Positions 2,272 to 27,981 of a DNA stretch of 39,003 nt are shown one piece after another. The notes under the pieces are model-generated. The model searched no databases. It was not told the DNA's origin and saw nothing but the letters and a program-made list of their open reading frames with translations. The first letter of the stretch is position 1; every line of letters starts with the position of its first letter. Source of the stretch: Steroidobacteraceae bacterium (GTDB lineage: Bacteria; Chloroflexota; Limnocylindria; QHBO01); contig JAICUY010000009.1 in NCBI GenBank assembly GCA_025935615.1, forward strand, positions 1-39,003, in the 5' to 3' direction. A program made the position numbers and the translations under genes.

Positions 2272-3477
2272 ATGAGACATCCACTCAGCCGCGGCGCCGC
2301 GTGCGCCGCGGCCCTCGCGCTTCTCGCTGGGTGCGCCAGCGACGGATCCTCAGCGCCGTCGGCGAGCTACCCGTCTGCCGTGGCAACTTCGTCAGGCGTC
2401 ACCGGCCCGACCTCCGCGACGACGCGCACCCCGGCCCCCCGCCCGCCGAGTGCCGTGACCGTCGAGCGGGCGCCGGTTCCCGGCCCCATCGGGTCGGTTG
2501 TGACGGATGGCACGTATATCGGCTGGTCGGGTGGCGACCCCGAAGGGATCCGAGATCCGGACTTCTACCGATGGAGAATCGGATCGGACGACATCGAAAC
2601 CATGTACCGAAACCCGCAACGCAACCGCGGCATCAGCCTGCCCGCGATGGATGGAGACCGCGTCGCCTTCTCAGAAAGCGGTGCTGAAGACGAATACGTC
2701 ATATCGTGGAATCTCGTCTACATCTCGCGGCCGCTTGCCAAGCCCGTGATCCTCGAGCATGCGAGACGACCGATGCAATCCCCCGGCCTCGTGCCACAGC
2801 CGGCAATCAGCGGCCATCGCCTGGTCTACGCGCTGCAGAAGATCCACGGACGGCGCGCCACGAGCTCGTTGGTGCAAATCGACCTGCAAACCATGCAGCG
2901 CACAGTGCTCGCCAAGAGCAACTTCGACAAGGTCGAGTACTGGTATCCGTCGCTCGACGGCGATCGGCTGGTGTACGGCACCGTCGAATACGCCAATGAC
3001 AAGCTGAACGGTGAACGCCACGTCTACCTCCTCGACCTCGCGACGCGCGGCGCGAAGCCGCGACGACTGGACACCGACGGCGAGGCGTCCCAGCCCTCGA
3101 TCTACGACGATACGGTCGTCTGGAAGAGCGCGCCGCGCTCGTTCAACGCCAACAACTGGGGCCAAGTCATTCGCTACACGATCTCGACTGGCGAGACCGA
3201 GCGGCTCGACTATCTCCGCGAGCGGACCGGTTACTTCCTGGTGTTTCCGCGCGTCGGGCCGCGGTTCGTCGCCGCCGAGCCATCCGACTGGACGAAGCTC
3301 GCGGTCTGGGACCTCGAGACCAACGCCGAGATCACGGTCGAGGAGTTGTCACCGACGGGTGACGCCGGCTTCCTGCGACCCAGCCTCGGAGGCCAGGTAT
3401 TCGTGTGGGTTGCGGCAACCGACTTCACCGGATCTCAAAGCCAGATCCACTTCGTTCGGTTGCCGCCTCCTTCATGA
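2272..3477 (+). CDS. TolB/WD40-like beta-propeller lipoprotein
   Basis: 401-residue predicted lipoprotein. The N-terminus has a basic start, a hydrophobic Ala/Leu stretch and a lipobox LAGC with Cys21 as the acylation site, followed by a Ser/Pro/Thr-rich linker to about residue 65. The remainder contains repeated blade-like segments of the form DG.R.VY....... and .D..T...... (for example SLDGDRLVYG, YDDTVVWKS and AISGHRLVYA), typical of TolB-type propellers. It is likely anchored on the outer face of the membrane. It starts 3 bp after the C39-like gene. Its TGA (3475-3477) overlaps the stop of the convergent acetyltransferase gene inside the palindrome TCATGA. No catalytic function is evident; a binding or scaffold role is inferred. 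Confidence 0.7.
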   Translation: MRHPLSRGAACAAALALLAGCASDGSSAPSASYPSAVATSSGVTGPTSATTRTPAPRPPSAVTVERAPVPGPIGSVVTDGTYIGWSGGDPEGIRDPDFYRWRIGSDDIETMYRNPQRNRGISLPAMDGDRVAFSESGAEDEYVISWNLVYISRPLAKPVILEHARRPMQSPGLVPQPAISGHRLVYALQKIHGRRATSSLVQIDLQTMQRTVLAKSNFDKVEYWYPSLDGDRLVYGTVEYANDKLNGERHVYLLDLATRGAKPRRLDTDGEASQPSIYDDTVVWKSAPRSFNANNWGQVIRYTISTGETERLDYLRERTGYFLVFPRVGPRFVAAEPSDWTKLAVWDLETNAEITVEELSPTGDAGFLRPSLGGQVFVWVAATDFTGSQSQIHFVRLPPPS

Positions 3478-4506
3478 GCCCAGCGGCTTGCGGAACGCGA
3501 GCGAGCGGGTGTGGACCTGGAATCCCGCCCGCTCGTACAGGCCGAGCGCCCCGGTCGGGTTCTCGCTATCGACCCCGAGCATCGCCTCGGTCATCCCGGC
3601 ATCCCGCAGGCGCAGCAGCGAGCGCGCGACGAGTGCCGCCCCGAGGCCGCGCCGGCGCCACGCGCGACGGGTGAAGACGCTGTCCAGCCAGCCACGCTTC
3701 CGGTTGAAGGCCGCGTTGTCCTCGGCGTAGATGCCGTTCTCGACACCACCCGCGATCTCGTCCCCATCCCAGGCGATGACGAACAGCCACGGGTCGAAGT
3801 TCGGATCCTTGATCCACTCCTGGTAGGCGGCCTCGTCGGCCGCGAACCCGCCCCAGTGATCCTGGAAGGCCTCGACGTCGGCAGCGAACAGCTGGCGCAG
3901 CTCGCCATCATTCCGGCCGACCGGCCGGATCTCCAGCCCCTCGGGAAGCGCTGGGACCTGGATGTTCTCGAGGTCGGGCCGCAGCATCTCGAAGAACCAG
4001 CGCACCGGCTGGTAGCCATGCTTCTCGAGCAGCTCCGCCTTGCGGGTCCGCTGCTCGGGGCACCAGGTGCCGACGCCAAGCGGACGGTCGGTCGGGTGGC
4101 TGGCTGCGTGCTCCGCGGCATGCCGCTCGCCCCACGCCAGCAGCTGCGTGCCGATTCCCCGCCGTTCCCAGTCCGGATGGACGTAACCACGCACGCGGTA
4201 TTCGCGCAGGCCGTCGGTGGTGTCGACCCAATCTGTCCACAGGTAGCCGACCAGCTCGTCATGGACCTGGGCCAGGACGACGTCGCGCGTTGGGTCGAAA
4301 TGTTCGCCGGCGGCTGATAACCAGTTGACGAGCTCGGCCTCCGAGACGTGCTCGTCGATCCCGTCGCGCCGGTTGCAGGCATTGGCGACGGCCGCCATGC
4401 GGCCCGCCAGGGTCGCCCAGTCCCCGTCGGGACCGGTCAGCCGAAAGCCGGGGATCGCCTCCTGCGGAGGCCGCCGCCCGGCCGCGGCGAGGGTTGCATC
4501 GATCAT
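3472..4506 (-). CDS. Tandem GNAT-domain acetyltransferase
   Basis: Predicted cytosolic acetyl-CoA-dependent N-acetyltransferase of 344 residues with two GNAT domains, the architecture also seen in mycothiol synthase MshD-like proteins. The first domain (about 20-170) has the acetyl-CoA loop ERRGIGTQLL at about 114-123; the second (about 180-340) has RRRGLGAALV followed by the C-terminal NPTGALGLYERAGF strand. I chose the ATG at 4506 because AAAGG lies about 9 nt upstream. An alternative ATG at 4593 overlaps the permease stop as ATGA and would add 29 Pro/Gly-rich residues encoded across a GC-rich hairpin. It is the last gene of the minus-strand ABC-exporter cluster, so a drug or metabolite acetylation role is possible but unproven. 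Confidence 0.8.
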   Translation of the reverse strand: MIDATLAAAGRRPPQEAIPGFRLTGPDGDWATLAGRMAAVANACNRRDGIDEHVSEAELVNWLSAAGEHFDPTRDVVLAQVHDELVGYLWTDWVDTTDGLREYRVRGYVHPDWERRGIGTQLLAWGERHAAEHAASHPTDRPLGVGTWCPEQRTRKAELLEKHGYQPVRWFFEMLRPDLENIQVPALPEGLEIRPVGRNDGELRQLFAADVEAFQDHWGGFAADEAAYQEWIKDPNFDPWLFVIAWDGDEIAGGVENGIYAEDNAAFNRKRGWLDSVFTRRAWRRRGLGAALVARSLLRLRDAGMTEAMLGVDSENPTGALGLYERAGFQVHTRSLAFRKPLGS

Positions 4507-4551
4507 GGGAGAAACCTTTCGTTGAGAACCATTGGTGAGATCCGTGTGATC

Positions 4552-4575
4552 GCGCCCGGGAGCCACCCCGGGCGC
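4552..4575 (-). terminator. GC-rich hairpin between permease and acetyltransferase
   Basis: GCGCCCGGG (4552-4560) and CCCGGGCGC (4567-4575) form a perfect 9-bp stem with a 6-nt loop. No T-tract follows on the minus strand, so this is an RNA hairpin that could attenuate transcription or stabilise the upstream message rather than a textbook intrinsic terminator. If the acetyltransferase really starts at 4593, the hairpin lies inside its coding sequence. Confidence 0.4.
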
Positions 4576-4589
4576 ATCCGTCTCGTGCG

Positions 4590-5390
4590 TCATCCGACGC
4601 GCTTCAGCTTTCCGGTGCGCTTCGCGTAGCGCTCGGCGACCGAGAACAGCCACAAGCCGAGCGGGATGAAGACCACGCCCATCACCAGCAGCGGCCACAC
4701 GTCGCCGAGCAGCGACCCGACCCCGGCACCCTCGATCAGCCCCTGGCGCACGCCGTCAAGGACGTAGGTCGCCGGCGAGAACTTCGAGATGACCTGCATC
4801 CAGCCGGGCAGCACGTCGATGCTGTAGTAGACGCCGCTGACCAGCAGCAGCACCGATTGCAGCACGAACGTCATCTGCGCGCCACGCTCGACGTACATCA
4901 GCGGCAGGATGGCGGTCATGATCCCGATCCCGATGAAGCTCAGCGAGCCGAGGATCATGAACACCGTCGCCGTCGCGAAGTTCGCGTGCGACAGGTCCAG
5001 CTCGAAGAACAGCGCCAGCACCGCCAGCACCACCACGGTGTGGACGAAGCCGTACGCCAGCGCGTACAGGGTGGAACCGATCATCTGGGTGTAGCGGCGC
5101 ACGGGAGCCATGAAGGTGTACTCCAAGGTCCCCTCCCAGCGCTCCCACTGGACCGTCTCGGCAATGAAGCTGAAGACGACAGACAGGTAGTTCCAGAAGA
5201 CGGCACCGATCACCAGGGTCATCAGCAGCCGGTCGTCCGCCTGGTCTCGGCCGATGAGCGACACGGCGAGCGCGCCGGCCACGGCGTAGACCAGGAAGGC
5301 GACCTCCCAGCCCCAGTAACGCTTGGTGAGGTAGAAGTTCCGCTCGACGAAGGCGTAGCTCGCCTTCAGCTCGCGGACCATCGTTGTCAT
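4590..5390 (-). CDS. ABC-2 type exporter permease
   Basis: 266-residue membrane protein of the ABC-2 permease family (COG0842 type), which pairs with a cytosolic ATPase to export drugs, lipids or polysaccharides. About six hydrophobic segments are visible: near residues 28-46, 56-76, 105-128, 138-160, 170-192 and 230-250. The family element LVSGVYYSIDVLPGWMQVISKFSPATY, cited here only by its start LVSGVYYS and end SPATY (about 183-209), is the conserved stretch before the last membrane helix. The N-terminus (RNFYLTKRYWGWEV) is the usual amphipathic lead-in. It lies downstream of the ATPase gene in the same direction, separated by a small ORF. The substrate is unknown. Confidence 0.85.
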   Translation of the reverse strand: MTTMVRELKASYAFVERNFYLTKRYWGWEVAFLVYAVAGALAVSLIGRDQADDRLLMTLVIGAVFWNYLSVVFSFIAETVQWERWEGTLEYTFMAPVRRYTQMIGSTLYALAYGFVHTVVVLAVLALFFELDLSHANFATATVFMILGSLSFIGIGIMTAILPLMYVERGAQMTFVLQSVLLLVSGVYYSIDVLPGWMQVISKFSPATYVLDGVRQGLIEGAGVGSLLGDVWPLLVMGVVFIPLGLWLFSVAERYAKRTGKLKRVG

Positions 5391-5438: not shown

Positions 5439-5636
5439 TTACAGGGACCGAGCCGGCCTCAGAGACGGGTCTGCTGCCAGACGCGCGCCGATGCGCACCA
5501 TCTGACGCCCGACCCAGCGTCGCACGGGGCGACGCGGGACCGATGCGCGAGCTGGATACAGCTCGCGGCGCATGCGCGCCACGCGCTTGTCGTTCTCGCG
5601 AACCAGGTCCTGCGGGCTCGGCAGGATCATCAACAC
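5439..5636 (-). CDS. Small basic protein between ABC ATPase and permease
   Basis: 65-residue ORF with start GTG at 5636, supported by an excellent ribosome site: AAGGAGG about 8 nt upstream (5645-5651). An in-frame ATG at 5657 would place that Shine-Dalgarno inside the coding sequence, so the internal GTG is preferred. The protein starts hydrophobic (LMILPSPQDLV), then is strongly basic and arginine-rich (RVARMRRELY, RRPVRRWVGRQMVRIGARL), with no transmembrane helix. It starts 35 bp after the ATPase stop and ends 48 bp before the permease start, so it sits inside the exporter operon. I do not recognise a family; an accessory or membrane-surface role in the exporter is possible. Confidence 0.55.
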   Translation of the reverse strand: MLMILPSPQDLVRENDKRVARMRRELYPARASVPRRPVRRWVGRQMVRIGARLAADPSLRPARSL

Positions 5637-5671
5637 GGTTCTCACCTCCTTTCTCATGTGCTTCGTTTCGC

Positions 5672-6559
5672 TTAGTCGTCGTTGTCGTCGTCGTCGTCAC
5701 CGATGTCGTCGTCGAGCGACTTGCCGGTGAAGGTCATGAACACACTCTCCAGGGTCGGCGGCAGTCCGTACTGCTCGGCGACCAGCGCCTTCAGCCCGGC
5801 CGGCGTGTCCTCGGCGACCACCCGTCCCTCGTTGATGACGGCGATTCGGTCGCAGAGCCGGTCCGCCTCGTCGAGGTCGTGCGTGGTGAGCACGATCGTT
5901 GAGTCGTGCGTGTCCCGCATCTCCTCGATGAAGGCCTGCACGTCGAGCTTCGAGCGCGGGTCGAGGCCGGTGGTCGGCTCGTCGAGGAGCAGCAGCGTCG
6001 GGCTCGTCAGCAGCGCTCGCGCAATGGCGACCTTCTGCTGCATCCCCCGGCTCATCTGCTCCAGCGGCCGATTCAAACGCTTCTCCCCGATGCCCAGCCG
6101 CGCCAGGATCCGGATCACGTCGCGCTTGGCCTGCTTGGCGTCGAGGCCGTACAGCCGCGCCGCGTAGGTCAAATTCTCGTGCGGGCTGAGCTTCTTGAAG
6201 AAGGCGGCGTCGACGCTGACCCGGTTGATCAGGCGCTTTACCGCCATCTCGTCCCGCTCGATGTCGTTGCCGAACACTTCGACCCGACCGGCATCCAGGG
6301 TGAGCAGCGTGCTCACCAGGCGGATGAGGGTCGACTTGCCGCTGCCGTTGGCCCCCAGCACGCCGTAGATCTCGCCGCGCCGGATGCGGAGCGACACGTC
6401 ATCGACGGCGATCACCGGCTTGCGCTTGCGTCCCACCACGAACCGCTTGGTGACGTGGTCGACCAGCAGCGCCGGAACAGCGTCGTGCCCGACCTCCGGG
6501 CGCGCGGCCATGGGCTGCACGACCGTATCGGTCTTTGGTTGTTCGAGTACGCCGGTCAT
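5672..6559 (-). CDS. ABC transporter ATP-binding protein (ABC-2 exporter)
   Basis: 295-residue ATPase that powers the downstream ABC-2 permease. Walker A is GANGSGKST (69-77), the signature is the variant SRGMQQ (170-175, in place of the canonical LSGGQ), Walker B is LLLLDEP with Asp193/Glu194, the D-loop is TTGLDP and the H-loop His is 227. The first 30 residues are an extra, probably disordered, extension. The C-terminus ends in a striking acidic run (DDDIGDDDDDNDD), encoded by GTC/GTCGTC-type repeats on the plus strand. The short C-terminal region after residue 235 is typical of DrrA/NodI-type exporters. The gene is preceded by a long structured leader with two intrinsic terminators. Confidence 0.9.
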   Translation of the reverse strand: MTGVLEQPKTDTVVQPMAARPEVGHDAVPALLVDHVTKRFVVGRKRKPVIAVDDVSLRIRRGEIYGVLGANGSGKSTLIRLVSTLLTLDAGRVEVFGNDIERDEMAVKRLINRVSVDAAFFKKLSPHENLTYAARLYGLDAKQAKRDVIRILARLGIGEKRLNRPLEQMSRGMQQKVAIARALLTSPTLLLLDEPTTGLDPRSKLDVQAFIEEMRDTHDSTIVLTTHDLDEADRLCDRIAVINEGRVVAEDTPAGLKALVAEQYGLPPTLESVFMTFTGKSLDDDIGDDDDDNDD

Positions 6560-6596
6560 GTGATGAACCTCGTCGATGTGCGGTGAGAAACGAAAA

Positions 6597-6629
6597 CGAG
6601 CCGCTGGACCCTGGCTGGTCCGCGGCTCG
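6597..6629 (-). terminator. Leader-proximal intrinsic terminator 2 of ABC operon
   Basis: On the minus strand CGAGCCGC-GGACC and GGTCC-A-GCGGCTCG form a 13-bp stem with one bulged A and a six-base loop (6611-6616), followed by TTTTCGTTTCTC (to about 6585). It lies about 40 nt upstream of the ATPase start codon, inside the transcript, so it would act as an attenuator rather than an end-of-gene terminator. Confidence 0.75.
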
Positions 6630-6652
6630 TTGCTGCTGATGGCAACAAAAAA

Positions 6653-6676
6653 CCGTGGACCCGATCCGGCCCACGG
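6653..6676 (-). terminator. Leader intrinsic terminator 1 of ABC operon
   Basis: CCGTGG (5' arm, minus) and CCACGG pair, with two further G-C pairs beyond a mismatch, and are followed directly by six T residues (6647-6652). It is the upstream one of two terminators in the leader. Its arms resemble those of the downstream hairpin (ACGAGCCGTGGGCC against ACGAGCCGCGGACC, and GGGTCCACGG against GGGTCCAGCGG), so alternative cross-pairing is possible. Confidence 0.75.
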
Positions 6677-6713
6677 CTCGTGGCGTCTGCTTGGCGGCTC
6701 TGCCGCCTGGGCA

Positions 6714-6803
6714 TCAGCTCGAAGTGGGCACAGATCTCCCGTTCACAGCGCCACTGAGAGGCGCCGTTCGATAGCGCGGGAACGCGCAGATGCGGGAGCT
6801 CAT
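6714..6803 (-). other. Possible 29-codon upstream ORF in ABC-operon leader
   Basis: An ATG at 6803 opens a 29-codon frame (MSSRICAFPRYR...) ending at TGA 6714-6716, between the predicted promoter and terminator 1. The ribosome site is poor: GAGG lies about 16 nt upstream. If translated, it could couple ribosome movement to the two terminators downstream. Evidence is limited to position and frame. Confidence 0.25.
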
Positions 6804-6883
6804 GGCCGTTTCGTTCGTTCCTCGTTGGATGATTGGATCGCCGAGCGACGAGTTGCGTCAGGACGCAAACCGGCCGCCGCGGG

Positions 6884-6913
6884 AGTCTACGTCCACCGCT
6901 GCGAACCTGTCAA
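6884..6913 (-). promoter_or_regulatory. Promoter of the ABC-exporter leader transcript
   Basis: Minus strand: TTGACA (6908-6913), 18-bp spacer, TAGACT (6884-6889). The expected start is near 6877, giving a leader of about 318 nt before the ATPase ATG at 6559. The match and spacing agree with the rpmH and ssrA promoters in this window. Confidence 0.7.
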
Positions 6914-7039: not shown

Positions 7040-8017
7040 ATGCGACTCAACCGCGGCCTCCTGTTCTGGGGCCTCGCGTTCATCACGGCGGGAGCCGTTG
7101 CGCTCGCGGTCCAGCAACGGGTCATCTCGCGCGAAGCCGTCGTCGAAATCTGGCGCTTCTGGCCGGTGATCCTGATTGCGATCGGCATCAGCATCATCGC
7201 CGCGCGGACGCCGCTGGCTCCGCTGGGAGCGATCATCGGCGCCCTCCTGCTTGGCGCGTTCGTTGGTGGACTGATCGCGGCCGGGCCGGCGCTGGTTGCC
7301 TCATGCGGCGGCGCTCCGTCTGCCGGCGGCCCGGTCACCTCGCCGGCGATCACGCGCGACGGCTCTTTCGGCAGCGGCGCCAAGGTCGAGATTAACGCCA
7401 ACTGCGTCGCGCTGACCCTTTCGGCGCAGGACGGTAACGGCTGGCAGTTCGCGGCTGCGGATGACGACGTCACTGTCGAGGCCGATGCGGCTCGCCTCGC
7501 CATCAGCACTCCCGAGACGAGCTTCTTCGGGGCCGATACGGACAATCGCCGCTGGGACGTCACGTTGCCGACCCAGCCGGCGCTCGACGTGTCGATCGAC
7601 GCCAACGCGGCACGCGGGCGGTTGAACCTCGGCGACACCCACCTCACCAGCCTGGAGCTGAACGCCAACGCCGGTGACGTCCTGCTCGACCTGGGTGGCG
7701 CCGCGGTGGACGGGTTGAACCTCGAGGTCAATGCCGGCAAGGCATCGGTCGTGCTCGACGATACGACGTCGGTGACCGGATCGATGAGTGCCAACGCCGG
7801 ATCGCTGGAGGTCTGCGCGCCCGCATCGGTCGGACTGCAGATCCACCTCCAGGACAACGTGGCCTTCGGCGACAATCTCGACCAGAGCGGGCTCCGCTCG
7901 ATCGACGCGTCGACGTGGCGATCGGCGAGCTACGACACCGCGCAGAGCCGCGCGACCCTCACCGTCGAGGGCAACGCCGGCAGCTTCACCCTGAATTTGG
8001 ATGGAGGATGCCAATGA
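7040..8017 (+). CDS. LiaF-like membrane protein with toast-rack repeat domain
   Basis: 325-residue protein. An N-terminal block of about three hydrophobic segments (residues 5-24, 40-57 and 62-84; FWPVILIAIGISII is the LiaI/LiaF-like element) is followed by a predicted extracytoplasmic beta-rich domain. That domain has a repeating NANAGDV, VNAGKASV, ANAGSLEV and GNAGSFTL pattern, the stacked short strands of DUF4097/LiaF-type 'toast-rack' folds. The last codons overlap the next gene (PspC) as ATGA at 8014-8017, so the two are translationally coupled. LiaF- and PspC-type proteins act in cell-envelope stress sensing; that role is inferred here. No two-component system is adjacent. The ATG at 7040 has only a weak ribosome site. 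Confidence 0.75.
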   Translation: MRLNRGLLFWGLAFITAGAVALAVQQRVISREAVVEIWRFWPVILIAIGISIIAARTPLAPLGAIIGALLLGAFVGGLIAAGPALVASCGGAPSAGGPVTSPAITRDGSFGSGAKVEINANCVALTLSAQDGNGWQFAAADDDVTVEADAARLAISTPETSFFGADTDNRRWDVTLPTQPALDVSIDANAARGRLNLGDTHLTSLELNANAGDVLLDLGGAAVDGLNLEVNAGKASVVLDDTTSVTGSMSANAGSLEVCAPASVGLQIHLQDNVAFGDNLDQSGLRSIDASTWRSASYDTAQSRATLTVEGNAGSFTLNLDGGCQ

Positions 8018-8460
8018 CCGGGCGTCTGTATCGGTCCAGGACCGATCGCGTCATCGCCGGGGTCGCCGGCGGCGTCGCCGACTATCTGAACCTCGACCCG
8101 TCGCTGGTGCGCATCGTGTGGGCCGTGCTGGCGTTCGTGACCGGCGGGCTGTTCTTCCTGATCTACATCGTGATGTGGATCGTGGTGCCCGAGGCGCCGT
8201 CCGGGATGCGCACGTTCGACGACGTCCCGCCGTCTGACGCCCCGGTGGGCGACGAAGTGGATGTCACGCCGAGTCGGGCACGGGGCGACTGGGACGCCGG
8301 CAATACGCGGCTGGTGGTCGGCCTGGTCCTCATAGGGCTGGGCGCGTACTTCCTGCTGCGCAACTACCTGCCCGACATCGCGTGGGGCCGGTTCTGGCCG
8401 GTGCTGCTGGTGCTGGCCGGCGTCGCGCTGCTGATTGCCTCGATGCGCCGGTCACGGTAG
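8014..8460 (+). CDS. PspC-domain membrane protein
   Basis: 148-residue protein starting at ATG 8014, with GGAGG at 8003-8007 and a 4-bp overlap with the upstream LiaF-like gene. Residues 1-60 form a PspC domain: RSRTDRVIAGVAGGVADYLN followed by PSLVRIVWAVLAF and the membrane segment GLFFLIYIVMWIVVP. After an acidic/proline linker (about 65-95) a LiaI-like pair of membrane segments follows (LVVGLVLIGLGAYFLL, WPVLLVLAGVALLIAS). PspC-type proteins sense envelope stress; here the partner is the preceding LiaF-like protein. The gene stands at the end of a two-gene plus-strand unit. Confidence 0.85.
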   Translation: MTGRLYRSRTDRVIAGVAGGVADYLNLDPSLVRIVWAVLAFVTGGLFFLIYIVMWIVVPEAPSGMRTFDDVPPSDAPVGDEVDVTPSRARGDWDAGNTRLVVGLVLIGLGAYFLLRNYLPDIAWGRFWPVLLVLAGVALLIASMRRSR

Positions 8461-8881: not shown

Positions 8882-11800
8882 CTACTCGCCAGCCGTGACC
8901 TCCTGCTGGTCGCGTCGCGAGGCGATCGTGCGCACCACGCGTGGCGTCAACCACGTCCTGCCCCACAGCGCCCACAGCACTGCGGCAGCGGTGAGCAGCA
9001 CGGAGAACGCGGCCTGCAGCCGGCCGACCGAGAACAGCTCGCGGTGGCCCTGAGGCGGTGCCGGGAACTGGAAAGCGTAGTTCCAGGGCGCCAGCGCACG
9101 CATGGCGTTGATGTACCAGTCGGGCATCACCAGCGCCGAGCTCATGGGGAAGACGATCACGCCCACGATCACCACCCCGATCAGGAAGGCAACGCCGACC
9201 GACCGCCATTCCCAGCTCGACAGCAAGTCCTCGACGGCATACGCCACGGCCACCATCGCGAACAGCACGGCGGTGAGGTAGTGATAGTGGAACGTTGCTC
9301 GCTCGATCCGGATCCAGGGCAGGTACTGGAAGGCGAAGGCGGTAATGATCAGCACCAGTCCCAGCGATCGGCGCCGCCACGCCTGGATCGAGCAGTACAC
9401 CAGCGCCGGGATCCCCGCCCAGAACAGCAGCGGGTTGCCGCCGTTGTAGATCGCGGCGCCGACGCGGTCGTTCCAGGCCCCCGGGTTGCCGTAGAACCAG
9501 ACCGGCTTGAGGTCGAGCGGCCAGCTCCACCACGGCGAGGCGCTGGGGTGCCCCGACTGCAGGCCGAAGTGGTAGCCGAACATCTGCGCCTGCAGCTCGT
9601 CGAGCGACCAGCCGTAGCCGGGGCCTGCGCCACCTTTCAGCGCAATCGTGTGGCCGAGCTCGAGATACGGGACGTAGGCGACGAGGTAGATCACCAGCGG
9701 CACGATCACCAGGCAGGCGCCGACCCACGGCCAACCGAAGCCGGCCATCGCCGACGGTCGCATCCAGCCGCGGTCGCTGTTCGAGTCGCGCAGAGACGCA
9801 AGCGCGCGCCAGAGCAACAGCACCGCAGCCACGCCGACCATCAGCCAGCCTGGCCACCCGGCCTGCGCTCCGCGCGCCAGGTAGCCGAACACCGCCTCGA
9901 CCGCGCTGGTCGGATCCCGCCCGTTGACCTGCCCGAAGCCGATCGCCAGCGCCAGACCGATGCCTCCGGCCACCAGCCCGCTGGTCGGCAGCGCCGCCCA
10001 ATCCTCGCCGCGTATCCGAATCGGTCGCAGCCAGCTGAAGAGGAGCGCCAGGCCGAGGACCAGCAGCAGCATCACCAAGAACGGCCATGGTGCACCGATG
10101 CCGGCGATGCCCACCAGGAAGGCCGCCGCAGCCACCAGCAGCAGCCGCCCCAGTGCGGATCGGGCCAGGACCAGCACCAGCAGCCCGGCGAGCGCATAGA
10201 AGCCGACCCACTTGGTGGCCGCCGCCAGACCGATGAGGACGCCGGTCAGCGGCAGGACCCACCACGCGCTGCGTTTCCATCGGCCTGACCAGACCTGCCA
10301 GAAGAGGAGGTAGGCGGCGACGATGAAGACCGCCACGTAGATGTCGTTCATCGCGATGCGGCTCATCACGTAGCTCATCCCGTCGATGGCCACGAAGGCC
10401 GCGGCCAGCACGGCGATGCGTCGACGGCGGAACATCGTGGCGGCCAGCAGGTAGATGAGGCCGACCAGGATCGCGCCGAAGACGATGCCCGCGATGCGCC
10501 AGGCGAACGCATTGCTGCCGGCGTCGATCGTGACCAGCTGCGGTGAGCTGCCGGCGGTCGCGACCAGCAGGTTGGCGTTGTCGTCACCCTCGGCCGTCCT
10601 GGCGTCGTCTGCCACCACCGCTGCCGCCTCACCGGGGAGCGGCGTGGTGTCCCAGGCCACGAAGCCGCTGCGCTCATCGCCCAGCGGGCTGACCGTCCAG
10701 ACCACCGGGTGACCGGCCTCCGACCCGGCGACGTAGACGATGTCCGCCGAGTCCTGCCACGAGATGGCGGTCGCCTCGCCGGGGAGCGGCACCGTCACGA
10801 TCTCGGACGGCGTCTCGTTGAAGACGGTGATGCCGCCGGCAACCGGCCCGTGCTCGTCGTTGGCCGGCAACGCGCCGACCGGCACCCAGACGCTCAGATC
10901 GTCGCCATCGCCATGGACGAGGAGCGGGCCAGCCGGCGTGGAGGGCAAGTCGATCGATCGCTTCTCGGCGAGGTCGGCTGCGGTGAGGACCACCAGCCGG
11001 CTGCGCGCCGAGTCGATCGCCACCACTTGTGCCGGCTTCGTGTCGTCGCCGCTCGAGCCGGGCAGGTAGCCGACGTCGCTGGCCGCCAGGCGGCTGTGCG
11101 CGATCTCCTCCCCCGTCTCGCGGTCGAGCTCGGCGATACCCCCCTCACCGATGACCAGCAGCGCGTCGTCGGCACTGGGCACGGGCTGGGTGATGTCGTC
11201 CCGCCACGGCACCACGATCCGCGAGACCGAGCCGAGGCCGGTCTCCAGCGGCGGGATGGCGGGGGGCGGCGCTCGCTCGCCGAGATGCGTCATGAACGCG
11301 TCGGTGGCGTACGCCTTGACCTGCCCATCGGCGCTCGATCCGACCAGCAGCCGCTGGCCGAACGGGTCGTAGGCCAGCGACGCGACCGGCGCCCCGGCCG
11401 ACCACGACGACACCACGTCGCCCGACAGCGCGTCGCGCGCCGTGATGGTGTCGCCTGATCCGGTGAAAATGACCGAGCGCGGATGCCCGGCATCGGCGTA
11501 GCGCGGGATGACCGCCATGGCGGAAGCCGGGGCGTCGAGCGGAACGCTGCCCTCGACCTTGTTGGGATCGGCCACCACGATTCCCGCCGCGATGAGGTAC
11601 TTGGCCAGCATGGGGTGCGTCCACTCATAGGTGTCGCGCCTCCAGCCGTGCTCCCAGTCGGCCAGCCACTCGGTCGCCGAGCGGGCGTGGTAGACCTCGT
11701 CGAAGTGCATGGCGCGCGGGATGTCGAGCCGCCACAGGCGGAAGACGAACGCGAACAGGACGAAGCCGATGAGCAGCGCCAGGTCGAGGCGATCGAGCCG

Positions 11801-13423
11801 GCGCATCGGTTCGCCGAAGTGCGGATCGGACCGATCCGGGCGCAGCCAGCCGAATCGCTCGCGCCAGGACAGCGGTGGATCCCACGCGGGCGTCGCCGGG
11901 GCCGTCTCAACGGGACCGGCCTCCGCGGCAGTTGCCACCCGGTCGCCGCGCAGCCCGACCTGCAGCGAGCGCCAAGCGATCCAGCACAGGGCGGCCACGA
12001 TCATGGCGCCCAGTGCGTAGATGCCCCCGTCGGTGAGGAGCGTCGAGGCCAGGAACGGATCGCGCTGCATGGGCAGTCCGTTCAGCCCGGGATTGAGGAT
12101 GCGCGGGCCGGCGTACGACCAGTCGAGCGTGTAGGTCCAGTACACGTTGGCGAAGAACGACAGTGAGAGCACCCCGTACAGCAGCATCCAGCGCCAGTTG
12201 CGCAGGATGAGCGGCACCGCCAGCGGCACGGCCAGGGCCAGCGCGGGAAACAGGTAACGCTCGTGGACCCGCGTCGGCAGAGCGAAGAAGCCGACCGCCA
12301 GCAGCAGTGTGGCGAGCAGCACCCCGCGCGCGTCATCGCGCCGCCACACCTGCCACAGTGCAAGGACGGCGACGGTGGCGAACAGCAACAGACCGATCAG
12401 CTGCCAGGTCACGGGAGCGCCACCCAGCAGGAAAGCGACGCCGCCCTGGCAGCCGCTGTCCCCGGCAGCCGGCGCGTCGCAGCCCCACAGGTTCGTGTCC
12501 CCCAGTCCGCTCCACGGGTTGCGCCACAGGTTGAACGCGTTGATCGACAGGCCGTGATAGGTGTTGGCCGCGTCCAGGAACTTGCCGATGAGGCTGTGGA
12601 CGCGGTCGTTCGGCGCCCAGACCGACAGGTTGAAGGGCGCGATCAGGACCACCAGTGAGCCCACCCCCGCCGCCAGGGAGGTGAGGACGCGCACCGCGTC
12701 CGGCCGACCGTCGAGCGCCGGGTCCGAGGAGCGCCCGAACAGGTGGCGCCGGATGCCCACGATCGCCACGATCGGGATCAGGAAGCCGTACTGGAACTTG
12801 ATCAGCAGCGCAACGATGGCGCCAACGGCGGCTGCCTCCGTCCAGCCGCGCAGCAGCAGGTAGACGGTCGCCAGCAGGGCGAGCGCGCCGACCGAGTCGA
12901 CCTGGCCCCACACTGCCGAGTTGAAGATGGGACCCGGGTTAAACAGGTACAGCGCGGCCGCGGCCAGGCCGAGCGTGTCGCCGCTGAACCCGAAGCGGCC
13001 GTGCATGAAGCGGCGCGTGAGGGCGAAGAGGAGTGCCGCCACCCCCGCATCGGCCAGGACGCCGGGAATCTTGACCAGGCCGGGGGTGACGTCCATGCCG
13101 GCGAACCCGGAAAGCAGCTCACCCAGCTTCCCGACCGCCCACAGCACGTAGAGGTAGCCCGGGGGATAATCGCTGAAATAGTCGGGTGCGTAGAATGCGC
13201 CCGGTCCGCCGCTTGCGAGCCGATGCGCCCAGGCGGAGAAGTCGCCGATATCGATCCGAAAGCCGCTCTGCGGCATGACCACCCCGGCGATGAACGCCCG
13301 CAGGAGCAGACCGAGAGCGATGAGGATGACGAGCAGCGAGACGGCGCGCCGCGTCACCGGGGCCGGCGCCCCCGTCACGGGCGCCGTGGGGTATCGAGCG
13401 CCAAGGTGGCGGTGAGTATACAT
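8882..13423 (-). CDS. Double GT-C glycosyltransferase with inserted beta-propeller
   Basis: 1513-residue multi-membrane-spanning protein. Residues 1-500 form a first GT-C module: the first helix is near 27-45, then the acidic loop RIDIGDFSAWAHRLASGG expected at a GT-C active site, then about ten hydrophobic segments. After a charged linker (about 505-550) a second module begins that resembles protein O-mannosyltransferase (PMT/GT39): RLWRLDIPRAMHFDE, with Asp/Glu near residue 573, and THPMLAKYLIAAG. The membrane domain is interrupted at about 617-970 by a propeller-like region (TARDALSGDVVSSW, LVGSSADGQVKAYA), then resumes with many helices to the end. Likely a polyprenyl-phosphate-sugar-dependent glycosyltransferase acting outside the membrane. 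The start ATG has a weak ribosome site and lies head-to-head with the plus-strand DUF2723 gene. Confidence 0.75.
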   Translation of the reverse strand: MYTHRHLGARYPTAPVTGAPAPVTRRAVSLLVILIALGLLLRAFIAGVVMPQSGFRIDIGDFSAWAHRLASGGPGAFYAPDYFSDYPPGYLYVLWAVGKLGELLSGFAGMDVTPGLVKIPGVLADAGVAALLFALTRRFMHGRFGFSGDTLGLAAAALYLFNPGPIFNSAVWGQVDSVGALALLATVYLLLRGWTEAAAVGAIVALLIKFQYGFLIPIVAIVGIRRHLFGRSSDPALDGRPDAVRVLTSLAAGVGSLVVLIAPFNLSVWAPNDRVHSLIGKFLDAANTYHGLSINAFNLWRNPWSGLGDTNLWGCDAPAAGDSGCQGGVAFLLGGAPVTWQLIGLLLFATVAVLALWQVWRRDDARGVLLATLLLAVGFFALPTRVHERYLFPALALAVPLAVPLILRNWRWMLLYGVLSLSFFANVYWTYTLDWSYAGPRILNPGLNGLPMQRDPFLASTLLTDGGIYALGAMIVAALCWIAWRSLQVGLRGDRVATAAEAGPVETAPATPAWDPPLSWRERFGWLRPDRSDPHFGEPMRRLDRLDLALLIGFVLFAFVFRLWRLDIPRAMHFDEVYHARSATEWLADWEHGWRRDTYEWTHPMLAKYLIAAGIVVADPNKVEGSVPLDAPASAMAVIPRYADAGHPRSVIFTGSGDTITARDALSGDVVSSWSAGAPVASLAYDPFGQRLLVGSSADGQVKAYATDAFMTHLGERAPPPAIPPLETGLGSVSRIVVPWRDDITQPVPSADDALLVIGEGGIAELDRETGEEIAHSRLAASDVGYLPGSSGDDTKPAQVVAIDSARSRLVVLTAADLAEKRSIDLPSTPAGPLLVHGDGDDLSVWVPVGALPANDEHGPVAGGITVFNETPSEIVTVPLPGEATAISWQDSADIVYVAGSEAGHPVVWTVSPLGDERSGFVAWDTTPLPGEAAAVVADDARTAEGDDNANLLVATAGSSPQLVTIDAGSNAFAWRIAGIVFGAILVGLIYLLAATMFRRRRIAVLAAAFVAIDGMSYVMSRIAMNDIYVAVFIVAAYLLFWQVWSGRWKRSAWWVLPLTGVLIGLAAATKWVGFYALAGLLVLVLARSALGRLLLVAAAAFLVGIAGIGAPWPFLVMLLLVLGLALLFSWLRPIRIRGEDWAALPTSGLVAGGIGLALAIGFGQVNGRDPTSAVEAVFGYLARGAQAGWPGWLMVGVAAVLLLWRALASLRDSNSDRGWMRPSAMAGFGWPWVGACLVIVPLVIYLVAYVPYLELGHTIALKGGAGPGYGWSLDELQAQMFGYHFGLQSGHPSASPWWSWPLDLKPVWFYGNPGAWNDRVGAAIYNGGNPLLFWAGIPALVYCSIQAWRRRSLGLVLIITAFAFQYLPWIRIERATFHYHYLTAVLFAMVAVAYAVEDLLSSWEWRSVGVAFLIGVVIVGVIVFPMSSALVMPDWYINAMRALAPWNYAFQFPAPPQGHRELFSVGRLQAAFSVLLTAAAVLWALWGRTWLTPRVVRTIASRRDQQEVTAGE

Positions 13424-27616: not shown

Positions 27617-27981
27617 TGGTGGAGATGGGGGAGAATCGAACTCCCCGTCCAGAACCGAGTCGCCGGGAACTTCCTACAAGCATTTCCGGCCTACTTGCGC
27701 TTCGCGATGCGGGCCCCCGACCGGCGGGGTGCTCCGCGCGCTATCCGGTGCACCTTTCGGCTCTTTGACGTCGCTCACCGGAGTCGGCGACGCCGCACCT
27801 TCCCTGATGACGTCTCGACAGCCCGGGAAGGGAAGGCCATCTCGACGCTCGTCGCTATTTAGGCGGCGAGGGCGTAACTGTTGTTGCCAGTTACTGGCGT
27901 TGCTCGCTTTTTTACGAGGCCTACGAGCATCCTCGGCTTGCGATCCCCGGTCCCTGAGCCCTGTCGAAACCTGACATCCCC
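27617..27981 (-). ncRNA. ssrA: tmRNA (transfer-messenger RNA)
   Basis: 365-nt one-piece tmRNA that rescues stalled ribosomes with SmpB. The 5' end GGGGATGTCAGG at 27981 pairs with the 3' acceptor strand ATCTCC, followed by discriminator A and an encoded CCA (ending 27617); the T-arm GGGAG-TTCGATT-CTCCC is intact. The tag frame is codons 27888-27859: GGC AAC AAC AGT TAC GCC CTC GCC GCC TAA, giving the degradation tag GNNSYALAA after the alanine charged on tmRNA. The tag ends in the ALAA that proteases recognise. smpB lies upstream in the same direction, separated by a 62-bp tandem array. Pseudoknot boundaries were not modelled. Confidence 0.95.

Follow-up and report, generated by a model that had tools for sequence, protein, structure and literature searches.

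A candidate ribosome-mediated transcription attenuator preceding an ABC-2 exporter operon and antibiotic-resistance-type genes in Chloroflexota

The window is the whole 39,003-nt stretch of DNA that was analysed, and all features of the regulatory leader described here lie on its minus strand (Table 1). The target gene encodes a DrrA-like ABC-2 exporter ATPase, and shares an operon with an ABC-2 permease. Between these two genes is a 72-aa ORF (5439–5657, minus strand) with no Pfam or NCBIfam match, and ORFs resembling it occupy the same place in many relatives (about 40–68% identity over longer matches). The permease is followed by a GNAT gene (3472–4698, minus strand) with two acetyltransferase stretches and a below-cut-off match to mycothiol synthase MshD; a gene of this kind also follows the permease in many relatives. 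Upstream of the exporter, at 7040–8460 on the plus strand, is a divergent pair of LiaF-like and PspC-domain genes of the envelope stress type, which also adjoins the exporter in several close relatives. Elsewhere in the window, a 1513-aa ORF (8882–13423, minus strand) has a C-terminal part corresponding to a protein O-mannosyltransferase (PMT) and about 960 N-terminal residues without a Pfam match, and a tmRNA gene (Rfam RF00023) is located at 27617–27981 (minus strand). PADLOC matches of the exporter ATPase were discarded as generic ATPase hits.

The strong promoter, 318-nt leader and two hairpins reported in an earlier note on this DNA were all located in the window. No other promoter-like site occurs within 4 kb, where 0.4 would be expected against the 1 seen. 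Of 88 relatives, 84 keep the promoter, compared with 0 of 430 shuffles; since it lies upstream of both hairpins, a transcription start downstream of both, which the note had considered, is not supported. The predicted start at ~6877 is separated by 318 nt from the ATPase start at 6559, and folding of this leader beats 100 of 100 shuffles (z = −6.4).

Table 1. Coordinates of the exporter operon and of observed and predicted leader elements in the window
Feature	Position	Strand	Basis or remark
Promoter, TTGACA (6913–6908), 18 nt, TAGACT (6889–6884)	6884–6913	−	kept in 84/88 relatives
Leader, 318 nt	6560–6877	−	transcription start ~6877 inferred from −10 box
Upstream ORF (uORF), 29 codons, MSSRICAFPRYRTAPLSGAVNGRSVPTSS-stop, conserved C-terminal motif GR[STGF][VA]P	6714–6803	−	frame conservation
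Structured region in uORF, P1 CUCCCG (6798–6793)/CGGGAG (6741–6736) around hairpins P2 and P3	6736–6798	−	
Antiterminator 5′ strand GAUCUG-U(bulge)-GCCCAC, within uORF end	6724–6736	−	
P4 hairpin GGCGGC-AGA-GCCGCC, within antiterminator loop	6693–6707	−	
Antiterminator 3′ strand GUGGGC-CGGAUC (T1 5′ arm and loop)	6663–6674	−	
Intrinsic terminator T1, CCGUGGGCC-loop-GGUCCACGG-UUUUUU	6647–6676	−	covariation
Candidate relay helix, T1 3′ arm (6661–6653)/T2 5′ arm (6625–6617), 8/9 pairs	6617–6661	−	
Hairpin/terminator T2, U-tract weak and interrupted	6593–6629	−	
ABC-2 exporter ATPase (DrrA-like), target gene	5672–6559	−	orthologue downstream in 87/92 loci
ABC-2 permease, same operon as ATPase	4590–5390	−	gene order kept in relatives

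The uORF begins with an ATG at 6803, and its peptide ends in NGRSVPTSS directly before the stop. Its frame, with start, Shine-Dalgarno (SD) sequence and nearby stop, was found in 81 of 88 relatives, versus 4 and 1 for the other two frames, and the stop is exactly three codons past the proline in 77 of 90 relatives' uORFs. G-R-x-x-P is present in 78 of 89 uORFs, with the Arg codon being AGA, AGG or CGA, while the N-terminal half is variable, with no one amino acid dominant. The GAGG Shine-Dalgarno sequence of the window uORF is 16 nt from the ATG, a far spacing that counts against the translation-dependent mechanism proposed below. R-x-R was enriched in uORFs over shuffles (21 versus 9.6, non-redundant set); because the sequences share ancestry, this enrichment is weak support, and a reading of the uORF as carrying the +X+ motif of macrolide arrest was not retained. 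Within the structured region, the two halves of P3 covary (0/2000 permutations) and P1 is marginal (96/2000), a value past which a role of P1 as an anti-antiterminator found no support.

The end of the uORF can pair with the T1 5′ arm and loop to form a bulged antiterminator, and since this arm and loop are shared, antiterminator and T1 are mutually exclusive. The T1 hairpin (6676–6653) is followed by six T (6652–6647), and few parts of the leader are as well conserved as T1 and its U-run, so that the absence of terminator conservation, raised earlier as a possible refutation, was not seen. For the antiterminator, native partners gave −23.6 kcal/mol versus −20.0 kcal/mol for species-swapped partners (0/2000 permutations), and native pairing likewise beat swapped pairing for P4 (3/2000 permutations). 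In the class alignment, which was not fitted to the antiterminator helix, the antiterminator covariation score was above 500 of 500 shuffles and every slid control, and the T1 score was likewise above all shuffles and slid controls. The T1 5′ arm and loop covary both with the uORF end and with the T1 3′ arm: in leaders L161–L166, GAUCUG is replaced by GACCG or AGGUG and the T1 loop is altered to match, and in L145 the bulge and one T1 base are both missing.

Equilibrium folding was applied to truncated RNAs from 57 non-redundant species, with ribosome position modelled by masking. While the T1 3′ arm is still absent, the antiterminator was predicted in all 57, and masking of the uORF strand gave a predicted T1 in all 57. 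In the window simulation, a ribosome sitting on the uORF stop abolished the antiterminator. For a transcript ending in the T1 U-tract, equilibrium folding usually favours T1, and the ON state would therefore depend on kinetics. The promoter, uORF conservation, antiterminator and T1 covariation, and order of formation are all computed results. Covarying arms and a conserved upstream domain, which the note would have taken to support a new regulatory RNA, were both found, and the leader is a conserved cis-regulatory RNA with no Rfam counterpart at gathering score.

The earlier description of two full terminators holds for T1 but, in relatives, not for T2. The T2 hairpin (6629–6597) is followed by TTTTCGTTT, and just 7 of 86 relatives have 5 or more T among the 8 nt that follow the downstream stem, with the tail of the T2 equivalent being 45% T, versus 14% in the leader. 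The proposed pairing of the T1 3′ arm with the T2 5′ arm was confirmed at 8 of 9 positions and covaries (native −15.9 versus swapped −14.3 kcal/mol, 0/2000), which could be partly indirect, via each arm's own hairpin partner; pairing of the T1 5′ arm with the T2 3′ arm showed no covariation (1189/2000). Mutually exclusive structures, as claimed in the note, are present in this cross-pairing, but the main antiterminator is instead the uORF end with the T1 5′ arm and loop. Since the T2–T1 pairing covaries despite the weak T2 in relatives, T2 may be a relay element. The relay helix could form only once RNA polymerase is past T1, so it would serve T2 or the relay and cannot block T1 termination.

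In a DNA search of 41 genomes, about 20 relatives had the leader at 71–84% identity, always before the same ATPase. A covariance model (R1) extended this to 96 of the 177 class genomes; these 96 belong almost entirely to two families, and the weakest two (L171 and L172) are doubtful. The orthologous ATPase is 21–222 nt downstream in 87 of 92 loci, and contig ends account for two of the five exceptions; the permease is next in relatives, and the small ORF and GNAT gene are often present. Second matches within class genomes (L215–L217) were judged chance matches, and L218 is the same leader at a contig end. A scan of ~85,000 species genomes covered other phyla by one exact pattern. Nearly every match that the model confirmed at 35 bits or more carried a Chloroflexi/Chloroflexota title, one of them reading 'Candidatus Limnocylindrales', so the class is probably Limnocylindria. 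Pattern matches in Falsiroseomonas, Clostridia and Pseudomonadota had either no model score or one of at most about 19 bits, and were assigned to chance.

Beyond the class, where target gene identities were checked by profile search, weak R1 matches in families f18 and f42 preceded the same ABC-2 exporter. Others preceded a type-I ABC exporter, whose leader peptide has GRTVP, and an ABC-F gene, whose peptide has GRAVP; a pattern search yielded a further ABC-F gene with a GRTVP peptide. One ABC-F protein with the module was then used as query, and its 30 best loci in the phylum were surveyed by eye. In about two dozen of the 30, 20 of them written out, a short uORF has the ending R-x(1-2)-[VAM]-P or a near variant (PCRTVP, HRITVP and DRIAAP, for instance). 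In the same loci the antiterminator is bulged (type ACUG-U-GCCC/GGGC-CAGU) and is accompanied by a terminator-like hairpin, in most cases GUGGGCC; in a few of them the U-run is poor or the start codon is not clear. In a phylum-wide alignment of 18 sequences, both partners had changed in 7 of the 11 antiterminator pairs, 0 of 500 shuffles reached any of five measures, slid controls were far lower, and T1 likewise covaried; this test was not blind, because the 18 sequences were picked partly for resembling the module.

With a second model (R2), the targets grew to include the same ABC-2 exporter in family f41 and, in f21, another type-I exporter; a SpoU-family rRNA methylase in f18 was matched with a borderline E-value (9e-4). 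At L282 (G191:C60:52656-52757), a terminator-like hairpin with GUGGGACAGUC precedes a SpoU-family rRNA methylase, a matching GAUCUGUGCCCAC strand lies upstream of the hairpin, and no clear uORF frame is seen; the module perhaps also precedes an rRNA methylase gene. L177, L183, L184, L281 and L285 were rejected as chance matches, and L283 (before serS) and L284 (before a RIO-kinase-like ORF), with borderline E-values and no clear motif, were set aside. L283 (G182:C5:83124-83227) is a seryl-tRNA synthetase leader with a weak R2 score (E = 0.0027), and may be another kind of leader RNA whose terminator is similar.

With a conserved uORF between promoter and gene, T1 between uORF and gene, and an antiterminator that uses uORF sequence, the leader is probably (roughly 0.8) a ribosome-mediated transcription attenuator of the bmrBCD/vmlR type for the exporter operon. 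In the proposed mechanism, RNA polymerase starting from the promoter at 6913 would make the uORF, whose last codons are one antiterminator strand. A ribosome reaching the uORF stop would cover this strand, allowing T1 to fold and transcription to end, while a ribosome arrested in the early part of the uORF, as with a drug in the peptidyl-transferase centre, would leave the strand free to pair with the T1 5′ arm and loop before the 3′ arm exists, preventing T1 and permitting transcription of the exporter operon. T2 may in turn be disarmed, its 5′ arm being captured by the released T1 3′ arm. We infer that ribosome position is the switch, with early stalling as the ON state and T2 as a possible relay. 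For the no-translation state, RNAs truncated ahead of the T1 3′ arm are predicted to fold into the antiterminator; since abolished uORF translation lowers expression of vmlR and bmrB (PMC9226507, PMC4191407), equating the untranslated state with ON may be wrong for the exporter leader.

An improbable alternative is an amino-acid attenuator, in which the ribosome would wait at rare or starved AGA-TCT codons and thereby report on the charging of Arg or Ser tRNA. The two codons are the rarest here (0.80 for AGA and 0.47 for TCT per 1000 codons in downstream ATPase genes), yet are common at the AGA-TCT site of the uORFs, and BmrB too has rare codons that alter read-through (PMC4191407). However, a ribosome stalled on AGA-TCT would sit over the antiterminator strand and so promote termination, reversing the trp-type logic, and the codons change along with their antiterminator partner, the ABC-F versions having CGT/CGC-ACT. 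In addition, amino-acid runs of the trp/his attenuator type are absent from the uORF peptides, with their variable N-terminus, and the targets are exporters and ABC-F genes, not biosynthetic ones.

Slightly less probable again is a ligand riboswitch, in which the P1–P3 domain would bind the exported compound and switch T1, the uORF being incidental. A structured upstream domain does exist, but frame, SD and stop are conserved whereas the loops and helices of the domain vary freely, its topology is not constant between families, and ABC-F leaders have the uORF end and antiterminator in common, not the domain. Rfam searches at gathering and relaxed thresholds gave nothing beyond chance matches in the leader, a mir-3524 match being both hairpins read as one; the lack of any gathering-score match agrees with the note, which had recognised no riboswitch or T-box consensus.

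It is very unlikely that the uORF chiefly controls ATPase translation, by re-initiation or SD unmasking, instead of transcription: vmlR has both layers (PMC9226507) and a long T2 region separates T1 from the ATPase start, but T1 and its U-run rank among the best-conserved parts, and the ATPase start is 35 nt past T2 in the window, outside any conserved hairpin. Least probable of all is a plain double terminator guarding against upstream read-through with no switch, which would suit the strong T1 but not the conserved promoter upstream of T1 with a short uORF alone between, nor the covariation of the T1 5′ arm and loop with two partners.

For the ribosome-mediated attenuator, ribosome-targeting antibiotics are the most likely signal, because of the analogy to bmrBCD and vmlR and because the targets are exporters and ABC-F genes; recurrence of the design before antibiotic-resistance-type genes across the phylum also suggests sensing of ribosome-blocking drugs. 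The exported compound or translation stress, offered earlier as the signal, came near this explanation, with the uORF and the main antiterminator overlooked. In bmrBCD and vmlR, which are proven ribosome-mediated attenuators with drug induction, the antiterminator forms when the ribosome on the uORF is slowed or stalled by drugs that target it (PMC4191407, PMC9226507), and ABC-F genes are often under such attenuation (PMC12421871).

More tentatively, and with odds that we place against it, R-x-[VA]-P might be a nascent-chain stall motif that parks the ribosome on the antiterminator until polymerase passes the terminator; an ancient module would then hold resistance genes off phylum-wide, to be released when any drug stops the ribosome earlier, and the exporter version would add a second hairpin, giving a domino of three alternating helices. 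The SecM and Apd arrest peptides have Arg then Pro near the stall site (RAGP, RAPP), resembling GRSVP, but the uORF peptide is too short for a secretion sensor, and a stalling role of GRSVP is putative. The leader permits a direct test of whether R-x-[VA]-P is kept as a ribosome-stalling peptide or only as an antiterminator RNA strand. The switch would mark candidate resistance genes and yields a searchable signature, and the Chloroflexota module appears old enough to span several classes, re-used for exporters, ABC-F genes and perhaps an rRNA methylase.

Among known systems, the ermK leader shows antibiotic-responsive transcription attenuation with tandem terminators, but precedes a Firmicute rRNA methylase gene, and its peptide and RNA are unrelated to the Chloroflexota leader. 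The bmrBCD leader of Bacillus subtilis, induced by ribosome-targeting drugs such as lincomycin, resembles the exporter leader in combining a leader peptide with a terminator and antiterminator, an ABC exporter target and rare uORF codons (PMC4191407). However, the bmrB terminator is inside the leader gene, its peptide and RNA are unrelated to those described here (PMC4191407), BmrCD belongs to another ABC exporter class than the ABC-2 type, and the Chloroflexota leader has two hairpins and forms a phylum-wide family. The vmlR leader of B. subtilis shares a uORF, an antiterminator nesting a hairpin and an intrinsic terminator, and has an ABC-F target, as do most relatives found, but its uORF has three codons (MIN) with stalling at the start (PMC9226507), whereas the Chloroflexota uORF is longer and its R-x-[VA]-P end carries the antiterminator strand. 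In Streptomyces coelicolor, the ABC-F genes of TiaA and Are5sc follow leaders with a uORF and terminator/antiterminator, as here, but the leader peptides (MLV, MVGDDDISG) have no R-x-V-P motif and the RNA differs (PMC12421871). A family with this peptide motif, bulged antiterminator, ABC-2 use and Chloroflexota spread was not found in Rfam or the open-access literature searched; the mechanism class is known, and, judged from sequence, the Chloroflexota leader family appears to be what is new. Antibiotic-sensing attenuators are documented in Firmicutes and Actinobacteria, to which the Chloroflexota family would add another phylum.
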